Origin: Promethearchaeota archaeon
GTDB taxonomy: Archaea; Asgardarchaeota; Lokiarchaeia; Sigynarchaeales; SOKP01
Assembly (NCBI GenBank): GCA_004524515.1
Contig: SDNV01000040.1
Coordinates: forward strand, 1-21,288
Direction of reading: 5' to 3'
Length of the DNA stretch: 21,288 nucleotides
The notes under the pieces were generated by a model. It saw only the letters and a list, made by a program, of their open reading frames with translations. It had not been told where the DNA came from and ran no database searches. Shown piece after piece: positions 5,569 through 13,316 of this stretch; the stretch's first letter is position 1; each line of letters opens with the position of its first letter. The translations under genes were made by a program, and so were the position numbers.

Positions 5569-6051
5569 ATGAGTAGTGCTAAAGACTTCAGATATTTAAT
5601 TCCTCAAAAATTATTTGATGAGATTACGCAGAAAGCAGCAGAGGCATATCCATATATAGAACACTACTGGATTTTCGCTGATCGTAAGGAAAATTTTGGT
5701 ATTGTGACTAAATTCATACCAAATCCGGACTTAAAAAAAACGAAAGCACACGTTAAACCCAGAAGCTGGATGCGATATAAAAAGTCAAAAATTTATAACA
5801 TGCGAAAATTTAAACAAGAGTTAGGTATAGATATCGTCTGGCAAGCTCACACACATCCTTCAGGACAAGAGAAACTCCATCAGATTGATAAAAGAATTTT
5901 AAAATATCTCTCAAATGGAGTAATGATTATAATAATTCCTGAACTTGCAGAAAAAGATCTAAAAGGACATTTAGTAGGCTGGTTTTATGATAAGAGGTAT
6001 ACTAAAAAACCCATCATTGAAAAAATGGTCTTTGAGATTATTTCTGAATGA
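5569..6051 (+). CDS. Stand-alone JAB/JAMM-domain protein (putative zinc isopeptidase-like)
   Basis: The protein is 160 residues and consists of essentially one JAB/MPN domain. JAMM proteases cleave isopeptide or C-terminal peptide bonds of ubiquitin-like proteins using zinc held by E + HxHPx(6)SxxD. Visible here are E31 in YIEHYWIF as the likely catalytic glutamate, NP at 52-53 after the second strand, and HTHPSG with H94 and H96. D107 has the correct spacing, then GVMIIIIPE and GWFYD near the end, as in prokaryotic JAB domains. The motif serine position is H104, which is unusual and may change or abolish activity. It has no signal peptide and no fused domain. ATG at 5569 follows an AT-rich box (AATTATAAATTT near 5537-5547). 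It stands alone between tRNA genes and a membrane acyltransferase, and its target is not known. Confidence 0.72.
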   Translation: MSSAKDFRYLIPQKLFDEITQKAAEAYPYIEHYWIFADRKENFGIVTKFIPNPDLKKTKAHVKPRSWMRYKKSKIYNMRKFKQELGIDIVWQAHTHPSGQEKLHQIDKRILKYLSNGVMIIIIPELAEKDLKGHLVGWFYDKRYTKKPIIEKMVFEIISE

Positions 6052-7749: not shown

Positions 7750-8517
7750 TTACTCACACAATTTATTGATTCTTTCAGGCCTTATAGCGCTTAATTTACA
7801 TTTTTTTAAATATTTTCCAATATCCGAAATGATCCCAGGTGCTTCCGTATCTTCCTTTAAAACGATGAGATTCTGTAAAAAGCCATATTTATTTATTGAA
7901 ATTATATCTCGGATATGATGAGTTTTTTCTAAAGCTTTTTTAAGTTGAGATTTGGTTTCACCACTAAGGAACACTGCCTCAAGACGTTCTTTAAGCAGTT
8001 TCTGATATAAATTCAGTGTTTCCTTATCCAAAATTCCCTTTATATTCTCTTTTACACTATCAATAGAAGTAATTTTAATTGACACAGGAAATCCATTGAT
8101 AAAATCATATGCCTTCACTATTTCTGGGAGAGATCTTTCTTTTCCTTTACAAAGCTGCTCTCTGAGTGTATTTAATGACACCAAAACATCCACTTTTGGG
8201 TTTAGAATCGCACAATCAACAAATAATCCAAATCCTACATTCCCTACATCGACTAAATTGCCTTTTAATAGCATATTCTTTTCTATAACATTGAAATCGT
8301 AAATTGACCCTATTTCCTTCTGAAGTAAATTTTTAATAAACACCTCTTCAGGACCTTTAATGCTTATCTCCATTCTATTATCATAATTACGTAATTTTAT
8401 GAATTTGATTTCTGTATTGTGAAATCCTTTTACTCGTTCTAAGGTATATTTTTTATAGCGCGAGATAATAGGCTTATTTTGTGGTAGTTTATCGGTTAAA
8501 ACTAATTTTATCACCAT
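7750..8517 (-). CDS. DUF2110-like archaeal protein of unknown function
   Basis: The product is 255 residues, soluble, with no signal peptide or membrane span. The central segment GNVGFGLFVDCAIL..KVDVLVSLNTLREQL (about 92-126), then SLPEIVKAYDFINGFPVSIKI (about 133-153), resembles the core of the archaeal DUF2110 family, where a G-x-GVFVD strand precedes a P-L-x-x-LR-x-QL helix. That look is reminiscent of OB/S1-like RNA-binding folds, but this is inference. The C-terminal part is lysine-rich and helical. It starts with ATG at 8517, divergent from the profilin gene, and converges on tRNA-Val with two bases between. Function is not known; the family name rests on recalled motifs. Confidence 0.6.
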   Translation of the reverse strand: MVIKLVLTDKLPQNKPIISRYKKYTLERVKGFHNTEIKFIKLRNYDNRMEISIKGPEEVFIKNLLQKEIGSIYDFNVIEKNMLLKGNLVDVGNVGFGLFVDCAILNPKVDVLVSLNTLREQLCKGKERSLPEIVKAYDFINGFPVSIKITSIDSVKENIKGILDKETLNLYQKLLKERLEAVFLSGETKSQLKKALEKTHHIRDIISINKYGFLQNLIVLKEDTEAPGIISDIGKYLKKCKLSAIRPERINKLCE

Positions 8518-8612: not shown

Positions 8613-8623
8613 AAAATTTAAAT
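8613..8623 (+). promoter_or_regulatory. Possible TATA box upstream of the profilin gene
   Basis: AAAATTTAAAT preceded by purines (AAAAAAGA) lies about 55-65 bases before the profilin ATG, in the divergent spacer shared with the DUF2110-like gene. It resembles BRE plus box A. In such AT-rich DNA the match is only suggestive. Confidence 0.3.
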
Positions 8624-8677
8624 TCCCTATTTTTCATTGTAAAATAAAAAATAGAATTTATAATGGCGTGAAATTAA

Positions 8678-9049
8678 ATGGATGAGAACCGATTTAATTC
8701 TTTTGTCCAGATGTTACGAGAACAGGAAGGGGTAGAAGAAGTATTTGTATTGAATTCAGAAGGGGATATTATCTTTAAATCTCAAGAATTTCCCCTAACA
8801 AATCAAGAATCAAAAAAAATTTTAACAGCTTGGAGAGAAAAAGAACCAGCTCTCATGTTTCAAAACGCTCGATATGCTATATTAAAGAATGACGAAATTC
8901 AGTTGGCAGCCAAGAACATCACGGGCGGAAAAGGCAATATTGTTGGTTCTATTACTAAAGAAGGAGACTATTTAATAGCTCATACACGTGATGAGGGCTT
9001 AATAATTTTAGAGTGGTCAATCTTTATTAATAAAGTTGCTTGGAGTTAA
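8678..9049 (+). CDS. Asgard-type profilin (actin monomer-binding protein)
   Basis: Profilins bind monomeric actin and control filament growth. The 123-residue product follows the profilin pattern through its length: an N-terminal helix (residues 1-17), strand VEEVFVLNSEGDIIFKS, then EFPLTNQESKKILTAW (compare the family's FP-x-x-x-xEE-x-x-I helix). After that come ARYAILKNDEIQLAAKN (the KYMVI...IRGKK strand pair) and GGKGNIVGSITKEGDYLIAHTRDE (the GGI-x-IKKTGQALIIGIYDE segment). The C-terminal helix is short and ends in W. The N-terminal W and Y residues used by eukaryotic profilins for polyproline are absent, with F6 and F9 nearby instead. A Roadblock/LC7 protein has a related fold and similar size, but the GG-x-x-x-x-x-x-KxG-x-YLI block fits profilin better. 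Proteasome alpha follows on the same strand. Confidence 0.78.
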   Translation: MDENRFNSFVQMLREQEGVEEVFVLNSEGDIIFKSQEFPLTNQESKKILTAWREKEPALMFQNARYAILKNDEIQLAAKNITGGKGNIVGSITKEGDYLIAHTRDEGLIILEWSIFINKVAWS

Positions 9050-10008: not shown

Positions 10009-10809
10009 GTGAAACAAATGATTGATAGAGCACGAATTGATTTAGGCGGATTTATAGTTGGACGCATTGAGAAAGAGGGTCGTGATTTTGAAATGCTATT
10101 GGATCCTGAAAAAGCTTGGGAAGCTAAGAAAGTCATTCGTGAAGAAATAGGAAAAAGACTAAAAGACGGGAATCAAAAGTCTCGATTATCCATTCAAGAT
10201 ATCTTAAATGATTCAAGAATATCAATGGAACTTGTTTTCGAAAGTTTTACTGTTTTTGAGGATTTACGAAGAGGAAAGAAGGCAACTGATGGTGATATGG
10301 AAGCCGTATTTGAAACTATTGATGGGAAAACGATTGGAGCTCATATTCTGTTGGATGGGGAAATCCAATGGACAAGAGAACAACGAGAAGAGGAGAGAAA
10401 TAAAAAATTAAAGCAGATCATTACAATAATTAGTAAAAATGCAATAAACCCTCAAAATAAGAAACCTCACCCTTACCAAAGAATTGAAAAAGCGATCGAA
10501 GAATCAAAAGTGAAAATCGATTTGATGAAGAATGCTGAGGAGCAAGTTGATGATGTAGTGAAAAGTCTAAGAGCTATCATTCCAATACGAATTGAACAAG
10601 TTGAAATGGCAGTAAAAATTCCAACAGCTTTCACTGCAAAGGGATATAACATTGTGGCTCAATTAGCTCAAATAAAAAAAGAAGAGTGGCAGAGTGATGG
10701 TTCATGGGTTGCTGTTGTCAATCTACCTGCGGGTTTACAAATGGAATTGATTGACAAACTTAATAAACTTACTCATGGAAGGGTTCAAACAAAAATTATT
10801 AAATCCTAA
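10009..10809 (+). CDS. Ribosome maturation protein SBDS (SDO1 homologue)
   Basis: SBDS acts with EF-2-type GTPases in maturation of the large ribosomal subunit; in eukaryotes it releases eIF6. The 266-residue protein shows the three SBDS domains. The N-terminal FYSH domain runs to about 100 (RIEKEGRDFEMLLDP, IQDILNDSRI, DLRRGKKA). The middle helical domain has EREEERNKKLKQIITII, NPQNKKPHPYQRIEKAIEE and IDLMKNAEEQ. The C-terminal ferredoxin-like domain has KIPTAFTAKGY and EWQSDGSWVAVVNLPAG. Start is GTG at 10009; the in-frame ATG at 10018 is possible and would remove three residues. An ATG at 10005 is out of frame. It is 80 bases after psmA and 79 before rrp4. Confidence 0.97.
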   Translation: MKQMIDRARIDLGGFIVGRIEKEGRDFEMLLDPEKAWEAKKVIREEIGKRLKDGNQKSRLSIQDILNDSRISMELVFESFTVFEDLRRGKKATDGDMEAVFETIDGKTIGAHILLDGEIQWTREQREEERNKKLKQIITIISKNAINPQNKKPHPYQRIEKAIEESKVKIDLMKNAEEQVDDVVKSLRAIIPIRIEQVEMAVKIPTAFTAKGYNIVAQLAQIKKEEWQSDGSWVAVVNLPAGLQMELIDKLNKLTHGRVQTKIIKS

Positions 10810-10888: not shown

Positions 10889-11725
10889 ATGAGTGAAGAT
10901 GAAGTTAATGAAGAAGATTTAAATAATGATATAGATGATGAAGACAATGAATCTGAAGAACTCGATGATGATGATGAGCTTGAAGACGATGATGAATTTG
11001 AAGATGAAGAAACCACACGAGATTTAGTTGTACCTGGAGAAGTCTTAACAACCGATGTAAAAAATTTTTTACCAGGGAGAGGTACCTTATTAACAAAAGA
11101 TAGGACAAAAATTATCTCTCTTAATATTGGTTTAAAGCAAACTAAAAAAAATTACATTAATGTTATTCCCCTAAGAGGATTCTACACTGCTCGTCCTGGA
11201 GACAAAGTGATTGCGTTAGTTGTAGATAAAAACCCAGTTAAATATCGTTGTGACATTAATGCAAAAGAGGATGCCATTCTTAAACCCAAAAATACCATGA
11301 AACGAGGAAGAGTAAGAAGAGGCGGTCGTGAACGATATGATTCTGGAAGTGAAAAATATGATATTGGAGATATACTAATTGCTAAGGTATTATCTGCCGA
11401 TCGATTAAACGCGCCTGAATTAACGACTGTTGGCAAATATTTAGGCAAGAAAAATAATGGGATTGTAATATCTATTGATCCTCCTAAAATTCCCCGAGTT
11501 ATTGGACGTAATGGATCTATGATAAAGATTTTAAAAAATCTAACAAGAACCAGTATCTTTGTAACTCAAAATGGTAGGATATGGTTGAAGGGGGAAGATA
11601 TCGCTCACGAAAGATTATTAATTGACGCAATCCAAAAAATTGAACGAGAAGCTCATACAGTCGGTTTAACTGACAGAATGTCTGAATATATTGAAAATGA
11701 AAAAAAGATAAGAGGTTTAAAATAA
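10889..11725 (+). CDS. rrp4: Exosome subunit Rrp4 (S1/KH cap protein) with a highly acidic N-terminal tail
   Basis: Rrp4 caps the archaeal exosome and feeds RNA into the Rrp41/Rrp42 ring. The N-terminal domain starts near residue 47 (VVPGEVLTTDVKNFLPGRGT). The S1 domain follows (IPLRGFYTARPGDKVIALVV). A KH domain is at about 200-220 (PPKIPRVIGRNGSMIKIL), and the protein ends in a long helical tail. In front of the usual start is a 41-residue tail in which 28 residues are Asp or Glu. The frame is continuous and the start ATG follows AGAGA, so the tail is probably real. The gene ends exactly where rrp41 begins. Confidence 0.97.
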   Translation: MSEDEVNEEDLNNDIDDEDNESEELDDDDELEDDDEFEDEETTRDLVVPGEVLTTDVKNFLPGRGTLLTKDRTKIISLNIGLKQTKKNYINVIPLRGFYTARPGDKVIALVVDKNPVKYRCDINAKEDAILKPKNTMKRGRVRRGGRERYDSGSEKYDIGDILIAKVLSADRLNAPELTTVGKYLGKKNNGIVISIDPPKIPRVIGRNGSMIKILKNLTRTSIFVTQNGRIWLKGEDIAHERLLIDAIQKIEREAHTVGLTDRMSEYIENEKKIRGLK

Positions 11726-12490
11726 ATGCCGTTAGTAATAAAAGATGAATACCCGGATAAGTTGTTTAGAGAAGATGGTAAACGACTGGACGGAAGAGAA
11801 AAAGATGAGCTTAGACCAATCAAAATTAAAGTTGGTGTCATCGAAAATGCTGATGGATCTGCATATTTAGAATGGGGAAATAATAAGATATATGCTGCTG
11901 TTTATGGTCCAAGAGAAGTCCATCCACATCACCTTGCTAAACCTGATAGAGGAATATTAAGAGTATTCTATAGAATGGCTACTTTCTCAGTTTTTGATAG
12001 AAAGCGCCCTGCTCCGGGAAGAAGAGAAAAAGAAATTTCTATGATAATAAGTGATTGTTTAGAACCAGTGCTTTTTCTCGAACTATACCCTGGAACTTCT
12101 TTTGAAGTCTTTATTGAGGTATTAGACGCTGATGGGGGAACGAGATGTGCTAGCACTACAGTTGCAGCTTTAGCTTTAGCAGATGCTGGCATCCCCATGA
12201 GAAGTTTAGTTACAGCTGTTGCTGTGGGAAAAATAGATGGTCAATTAGTCACTGATCTTTCAGGAATTGAAGATAAAGCGGGTGAAGCGGATTTACCTTG
12301 TGCGATTACTTGGTTTAATGAAGAACTATCTTTATTGCAATTTGATGGTGATATGAAATTAGAAAATTTAAAAGAATATCTCTCAATGGCAAGAGATGCA
12401 TTAAATAAGATCTATGAACTTCAAGTGGAAGCATTAAAGAAGAAGTACATTGAAATTCAAGAAGAAATAACTGAGGGAGGTAACGAATAA
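11726..12490 (+). CDS. rrp41: Exosome catalytic subunit Rrp41 (RNase PH family)
   Basis: Rrp41 carries the phosphorolytic 3'-5' RNase (and tailing) site of the hexameric archaeal exosome ring. The 254-residue product has RLDGREKDELRPI near the start, NKIYAAVYGPREVHP, and the arginine-rich segment RKRPAPGRREKE. LDADGGTRCASTTVAALALADAGIPM and the active-site stretch IEDKAGEADLPCAI complete the match; the aspartates of this stretch are the catalytic residues in characterised Rrp41 proteins. The ATG directly abuts the rrp4 stop and has GAGGT at 11712-11716, inside rrp4. Confidence 0.98.
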   Translation: MPLVIKDEYPDKLFREDGKRLDGREKDELRPIKIKVGVIENADGSAYLEWGNNKIYAAVYGPREVHPHHLAKPDRGILRVFYRMATFSVFDRKRPAPGRREKEISMIISDCLEPVLFLELYPGTSFEVFIEVLDADGGTRCASTTVAALALADAGIPMRSLVTAVAVGKIDGQLVTDLSGIEDKAGEADLPCAITWFNEELSLLQFDGDMKLENLKEYLSMARDALNKIYELQVEALKKKYIEIQEEITEGGNE

Positions 12491-12491
12491 A

Positions 12492-13316
12492 ATGATGAAT
12501 ATAAAACGAGTAATCTCCGCAATTGAAAAAAATTACATAATTAATAATTTGAAAAAAGGAGAGAGAACTGATGAGAGAGGATTATGGGAATATCGTGATT
12601 TTAATATCAAACATGACATAATCGCTTCTGCTGAAGGTTCTGCTGATGTTTCTTTAGGTAAAACTAGAATTATGACTGGATTAAAATATGAAGTTGGAGA
12701 ACCTTTCCCAGATATGCCTGACGAAGGAGTTTGCACAATAATGGCGGAATTACTTCCAGTTGCATCTCCACTTTTCGAACGAGGCCCTCCAGATGAACAA
12801 TCTATCGAACTTGCAAGAGTTGTTGATCGAGGAATTAGACACGCTGATTGTGTTCAAACTAAAAAATTATGTATTAAGGAGAAAGAGTTAGTTTACATTT
12901 TATTCGTGGATATGTATGTATTGAATTACGCGGGTAATTTAATCGATGCTGGGGGAGTAAGTTCTTTAGTATCACTTATTTCAAGTCATGTTCCTGAAGG
13001 TAAGATCGAAGATGGAGAACTGGTTTGGACGGGTAAATATTTGACGGGAGATATGATCGTGAAGGAACTTCCCTTAGTTTTAACATTTGGAAAAATTAAT
13101 GACATTATCTTTCTTGACCCAAATTTAGCGGAAGAACTAATTTCTGATGGGAAGATTTCAATATCAGTAACCGAGAACCGCATTACTTCTATCCAAAAAA
13201 GTGGAACTGCCACGTTTTCCATTGATGAAATTGAAATGTTATGTGAAAAAGCAATGGACATTGGCAAAATATTGCGTAAAGAGTTCGATCTTTGGCAATA
13301 CAAGACAGATTATTAA
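12492..13316 (+). CDS. rrp42: Exosome structural subunit Rrp42 (RNase PH-like)
   Basis: Rrp42 pairs with Rrp41 in the exosome ring; it lacks its own catalysis but helps bind RNA. The 274-residue protein has the GERTDERGLWEYRD start, ASAEGSADVSLGKTRIMTGLKYEVGEP, and LARVVDRGIRHADCVQ. VYILFVDMYVLNYAGNLIDAGGVSSL follows, all typical of archaeal Rrp42. Two ATGs (12492, 12495) follow a strong ribosome site GGGAGGT at 12475-12481, inside the end of rrp41. Its stop faces the converging CrtC-like gene across 30 bases. Confidence 0.97.
   Translation: MMNIKRVISAIEKNYIINNLKKGERTDERGLWEYRDFNIKHDIIASAEGSADVSLGKTRIMTGLKYEVGEPFPDMPDEGVCTIMAELLPVASPLFERGPPDEQSIELARVVDRGIRHADCVQTKKLCIKEKELVYILFVDMYVLNYAGNLIDAGGVSSLVSLISSHVPEGKIEDGELVWTGKYLTGDMIVKELPLVLTFGKINDIIFLDPNLAEELISDGKISISVTENRITSIQKSGTATFSIDEIEMLCEKAMDIGKILRKEFDLWQYKTDY

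Follow-up and report, generated by a model that had tools for sequence, protein, structure and literature searches.

A separate profilin clade encoded beside the proteasome gene psmA in Lokiarchaea

The DNA examined here (the window) is a stretch of 21,288 nucleotides of contig SDNV01000040.1 from a Promethearchaeota archaeon (GenBank assembly GCA_004524515.1), which carries a gene for a 123-residue profilin next to psmA, the gene for the proteasome alpha subunit. The gene, fold, clade and gene order of this psmA-linked profilin are well supported. It is a further kind of Lokiarchaeal profilin, apart from the Loki profilin-1/2 type and from an extended type of about 200 residues, and it is an old branch of its own within the Lokiarchaea. 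Gene, fold, clade, synteny, promoter-like box and residue conservation were each established by computation. The protein probably sits on the barbed face of actin and would not bind polyproline, and its gene would be expressed separately, from a housekeeping promoter of its own. Its role is probably that of a housekeeping partner of archaeal actin and not of a part of the proteasome machinery.

Gene, fold and clade

The gene and the secondary structure of its product in an AlphaFold2 model are as follows.

8678..9049, + strand: psmA-linked profilin gene, ATG at 8678, TAA at 9047-9049, 123 codons
Residues 3-13: helix
Residues 19-25 and 31-34: strands
Residues 42-53: helix
Residues 58-79: three-strand motif
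Residues 87-92 and 98-103: strands
Residues 110-121: C-terminal helix

Both blocks of the profilin pattern named in a first-pass annotation of the window are present in the open reading frame (ORF), GDIIFKS at residues 29-35 and GGKGNIVGSITKEGDYLIAHTRDE at residues 83-106. Of 681 candidates in a protein search, 678 were relatives at E ≤ 0.01, and the best 120 of these were 72-93% identical across 93-100% of the query, most of them 123 residues long; the ORF is therefore more than a chance reading. Where the source gives an organism name it is mostly Promethearchaeota or Lokiarchaeota, and some records are named there as Hodarchaeota, Thorarchaeota or Hermodarchaeota. The clade is called Lokiarchaeal because all 48 genome-contig loci are titled Lokiarchaeota or Lokiarchaeia. 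Two alignments were used, a narrow set of 38 close relatives (A1) and a wide set of 44 rows (A2), the latter made of the window protein, 34 of 140 listed proteins and nine locus translations.

The assignment to profilin made in the first-pass annotation was borne out by fold models and structural matches; the profile match is borderline. The Pfam Profilin family (PF00235) matched the window protein at E=1.1e-4, just under the cut-off, and 25 of the 44 members of A2 at E ≤ 0.01; the source database also assigns PF00235 to some of the relatives listed. The best hit in a sequence search of solved structures was Odin profilin (5zza, 2.3e-6), and a search with the family profile gave Thor (7pbh, 2.5e-9) and Heimdall (6yrr, 3.7e-4) profilins. 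A search with a far member (L104) returned 20 proteins, including P0139, which is NEF87_002565 of Ca. Lokiarchaeum ossiferum and is annotated as 'hypothetical protein' in the source database. The models of the window protein (mean predicted local distance difference test score 95.8) and of P0139 both show the profilin fold, including a helix at either end and the three-strand motif, and profilins were the top fold matches for both. The window model has seven strands, and its three-strand motif fits the profilin criterion given in a passage of PMC10933270, in which such a motif takes the place of the central helix's second half.

A maximum-likelihood tree was built from 28 psmA-type rows and 48 other profilins from the same and other genomes of the phylum. 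The rows were selected by homology and gene order, and four were left out (L106 and L109, cut or masked; L131, partial; L171, not used). All 28 psmA-type rows fell on one side of a branch with support of 100/98 in this 76-row tree, in which long branches meet in places according to a program warning. A control tree of 74 rows, restricted to residues up to 104 and additionally without L112 and P0136, recovered the same grouping at 98/99; the grouping is thus independent of the C-terminal motif. This motif, N[K/R]xxW, was found near the C-terminus in 26 of the 28 clade rows and R65 in 27, while none of the 48 other profilins had N[K/R]xxW or any tryptophan in residues 109-140. All 44 rows of A2 share residues G29, W52, R65, Q75, A77, N80, G90, N118 and W122. 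Closest to the clade from outside are L107 and L108 (G162, G159), two profilins of otherwise usual C-terminus, and no psmA or DUF2110 match was found within the stretches fetched for them.

Genomes with the psmA-linked profilin also encode a profilin of 133-134 residues of the Loki profilin-1 type (one matching 5yed at 7.8e-65) and a type of about 200 residues with a conserved C-terminal extension. The latter comprises rows L132-L136, L138, L140, L142-L148, L150 and L049, and its extension reads SIDPQLKGEIQSFLEWIKD...YYLQQNN.... The psmA-linked gene itself is duplicated in tandem in two genomes (L045 8001-8786, the same locus as L099 5641-6426; L098 6048-6828), the second copy being 46-48% identical to the window protein. 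The cultured Lokiarchaeum ossiferum is reported in a passage of PMC9834061 to have three profilin-like proteins. The tree of 256 Asgard profilins in PMC8410842 may include the clade, of which the passages and sections 9 and 11 of that paper make no mention; a literature search found no description of the clade or of its linkage to psmA. The separate clade with its marked C-terminus, alongside other profilins in the same genomes, was newly seen relative to the first-pass annotation.

The actin-binding face

Residues K69, S71, I73, R74, T97, N99 and E129 of profilin are taken by us to be actin contacts. In the sequence alignment human K69 corresponded to R65 in all 44 rows and R74 to K70 (K in 29, S in 15), while N124, K125 and Y128 corresponded to N118, K119 and W122. 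The structural alignment with 2btf placed residue 123 at 133, so that N118 and K119 would fall at 128 and 129; both pairs (124/125 and 128/129) presumably lie on the actin side of the eukaryotic profilin helix. The contacts printed in section 9 of PMC8410842, numbered with Met counted, are D87, R89, K91, V119-G121, G122, N125, K126 and Y129, and mutants of K68 and K86 mark the main actin interface of Leishmania profilin according to a passage of PMC10907219.

The 14 mapped contact positions had a mean entropy of 0.07 bits against 0.64 elsewhere in the 38 close relatives, and of 0.67 against 1.62 in the wide set. When residues 58-123 alone were considered, the conservation of the contacts in the wide set was significant in both helix registers (p 0.001, 0.024). 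Actin-family proteins were encoded in all 12 genomes sampled.

From this fold and conservation the psmA-linked profilin probably binds actin. Monomeric actin would be met at its barbed face by the sheet of strands 64-71, 75-79 and 87-92, where R65 takes the position of human K69, and by N118-[K/R]119 of the C-terminal helix. Binding would proceed without a eukaryotic polyproline groove and may restrain actin nucleation, as with other Asgard profilins. Several points weigh against this reading. The Pfam score of 22.7 bits is 2.3 bits short of the curated cut-off of 25. The contact positions were placed by alignment from a list only partly drawn from the cited papers, and in A1 the excess conservation within residues 58-123 depended on the register (p=0.004 against p=0.27). 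Human E82, D86 and H119 are without a like counterpart in the window protein, and its C-terminal helix is clearly unlike that of the actin-binding Asgard profilins. Within the clade, L096 has F in place of W122, and L112, on a very long branch, is without N118 and R65. The literature search found no assay of any clade member.

Gene order and transcription

The genes around the profilin gene, and a sequence box in front of it, are as follows.

7750..8517, - strand: DUF2110 protein, divergent neighbour, 160 bases from the profilin gene
8618..8624, + strand: TTAAATT box, TATA-like, 60 nucleotides upstream of the profilin start codon
9209..9928, + strand: psmA, proteasome alpha subunit, 159 bases downstream of the profilin gene
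10009..10809, + strand: SBDS protein
10889..11725, + strand: Rrp4-like exosome protein, matched by KH and RRP4 N-terminal models, mostly with scores close to or under the cut-off
11726..12490, + strand: RNase PH family, presumably Rrp41-like
12492..13316, + strand: RNase PH family, presumably Rrp42-like

The place beside psmA, called noteworthy if conserved in the first-pass annotation, is conserved. Of the 48 genome-contig loci, all 48 had DUF2110 divergently upstream, 45 had a co-directional psmA downstream, and 43 had a 160-residue ORF further upstream; in the three loci without psmA the DNA after the profilin gene ran for 1338, 2310 and 2 bases. A search of 227 genomes of the phylum, which overlap the 48 loci in many genomes and are not independent of them, gave 95 with any match (E ≤ 1e-4) and 58 with a strong match (E<1e-25). 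A co-directional psmA match was found up to 6 kb downstream in 50 of these 58. Of the remaining eight, six gave none at a cut-off of 1e-70. By position they are L009, L010 and L023, whose psmA is there but broken across frames, L035, whose contig stops within psmA, and L041 and L047 of the loci listed above. In the last two, G149 and G110, psmA is on another contig and the profilin gene is within 1.4 kb of the end of its contig.

Far members of 30-35% identity (G095, G096, G097) lie 156, 175 and 2794 bases before psmA, and in G099-G101 DUF2110 still adjoins the profilin gene, with psmA on another contig. G094 (L112 4876-6749) has the divergent DUF2110-profilin pair turned round with respect to psmA, whose neighbour is then DUF2110 and not the profilin gene. 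No such synteny was found across the Asgard archaea as a whole: among 15 psmA loci of more distant genomes in which the sequence reaches at least 2.4 kb upstream, none gave a nearby match to DUF2110 or profilin (tblastn E ≤ 0.01 with our own queries, by which distant homologues could be missed). Five further loci stood outside these 15, three with less than 2.3 kb of upstream DNA, L131 without psmA, and L112 with the inverted pair.

A literature search found no paper on DUF2110. The 160-residue ORF upstream of it (5569-6051, + strand in the window; 76-88% identity among the loci) had no Pfam or NCBIfam match and no solved-structure match below E 0.99. Its motif HTHPSGQEKLHQID at 5848-5889 resembles a JAMM metal-binding motif, and the ORF may encode a JAB1/MPN-type protease near the proteasome gene.

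Of 49 upstream regions, 37 carry TTAAATT 50-70 bases ahead of the profilin start, whereas 500 shuffles gave a mean of 1.7 and a maximum of 7; many of these regions are from related genomes, which overstates the weight of the count. From start to start, profilin and DUF2110 are 117-1242 bases apart (median 175, 40 loci). The gap between profilin and psmA is 170-3315 bases (median 250, 45 loci); it is 159 in the window and 4.6 kb in G156. Other ORFs were found in 14 of the 15 gaps read. A gene for a multi-span membrane protein of about 320 residues recurred in nine (L008, L012, L042, L045, L046, L048, L096, L097 and L094, on the opposite strand in L094). A Shine-Dalgarno-like sequence preceded nine of 49 profilin starts against 34 of 46 psmA starts.

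Because of the promoter-like box, the variable gap with its inserted ORFs and the Shine-Dalgarno contrast with psmA, the profilin gene is read as separately transcribed, and it would be expressed from its own promoter as a housekeeping gene. An operon with psmA was considered and is weakened by the box and the inserted genes. The first-pass description of a profilin beside a proteasome-exosome superoperon holds for position, as the gene adjoins psmA, followed by SBDS, the Rrp4-like gene and the two RNase PH family genes, but adjacency does not amount to operon membership. The proteasome neighbourhood would be an old, stable gene order and not an operon partnership.

A different use of the same neighbourhood is conceivable, though unlikely, in which the profilin fold has turned into an adaptor for a non-actin partner through the conserved N..W helix, possibly serving quality control of proteins or ribosomes near the proteasome and SBDS genes. 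The confinement of the C-terminal motif to the clade and the psmA neighbourhood retained down to about 30% identity are in keeping with this, as are the other profilins of the same genomes, which could have freed the psmA-linked copy for another task. The separate promoter-like box, the gaps of up to 3.3 kb (4.6 kb in G156) with unrelated genes, and the inverted pair in G094 argue against it, as does the conservation of the very sheet face with which profilins bind actin.

The polyproline site and comparison with known profilins

The polyproline side chains of eukaryotic profilin are taken here as W3, Y6, W31, H133, L134 and Y139. The N-terminal W/Y pair is absent, as the first-pass annotation had it: human W3 and Y6 align with F6 and F9. 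W31 is F33, and H133, L134 and Y139 are without counterpart in the sequence alignment, so that all six side chains are changed (three to F) or missing. Residue 9 was L in 34 of 38 close relatives, and the N-terminal helix was the least conserved of the segments compared. The C-terminal helix is indeed short, the alignment with profilin I (2btf) stopping at residue 133 of 139. These alignments and conservation counts support an altered site, but the loss of the W/Y pair is not peculiar to this copy. The psmA-linked profilin shares with Loki and Odin profilins, as reported for these, the lack of a polyproline site of the eukaryotic kind; it is the C-terminal helix that is peculiar. Loki-1, Loki-2 and Odin profilins are reported in PMC8410842 not to bind polyproline, and the psmA-linked profilin would likewise not bind it.

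Binding of proline-rich partners through F6, F33 and W122 in place of W3/Y6/W31/Y139 is decidedly unlikely. All 38 close relatives keep F6, and 36 of them have F or Y at position 33, but F6 is replaced by I or L in 15 of the 44 wide-set rows, where residue 9 is not conserved either. The counterparts of H133, L134 and Y139 are absent from the sequence alignment, S123 facing residue 133 in the structural one. On the other side, PMC8410842 reports that Thor profilin (0.2-0.5 mM) and Heimdall profilin (3.3 mM, or 0.30 mM without its N-terminal extension) bind a VASP proline peptide despite divergent sites, and its authors suspect weak binding in Loki profilins too. More doubtful still is an apparently Lokiarchaea-only subfamily with a C-terminal helix re-tooled for a non-polyproline partner, which would couple the supply of actin monomers to proteostasis or to the recovery of translation and for that reason stay beside psmA and SBDS. 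A Roadblock/LC7 (e.g. MK-D1 Roadblock 7yh1, 9jue) or other longin-like protein misread as profilin can practically be dismissed, since no Roadblock Pfam model matched the window protein at E ≤ 10 or any of the 44 A2 members at E ≤ 0.01, and its model shows seven strands with the three-strand motif, unlike the five-stranded sheet and the unbroken, dimerising central helix of Roadblock.

If the psmA-linked profilin is an actin regulator as proposed, the profilins of the Asgard lineage that has been studied best include a widespread, syntenic member. Its marked C-terminus gives a means of testing how partners were bound by profilins before formin-type polyproline tethering arose. Human and bovine profilin I (2btf, 1awi) differ from it in a C-terminal helix about six residues longer and in all six of the polyproline side chains named above. 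The profilins of Heimdall (6yrr) and Thor (7pbh) belong to the same Profilin family with a weak sequence match, but unlike the window protein have an N-terminal extension and measured polyproline binding (PMC8410842). Loki profilin-1 and -2 (5yed, 5yee, 5zzb) are 18-20% identical to it in structural alignments, about ten residues longer, different at the C-terminus and in a separate part of the tree. Odin profilin (5zza, solved with rabbit actin) is 22% identical in structural alignment; its C-terminal helix reads IQIDKTARQL against FINKVAW in the window protein, and the Odin-like rows L161 and L162 lie outside the psmA-linked clade.
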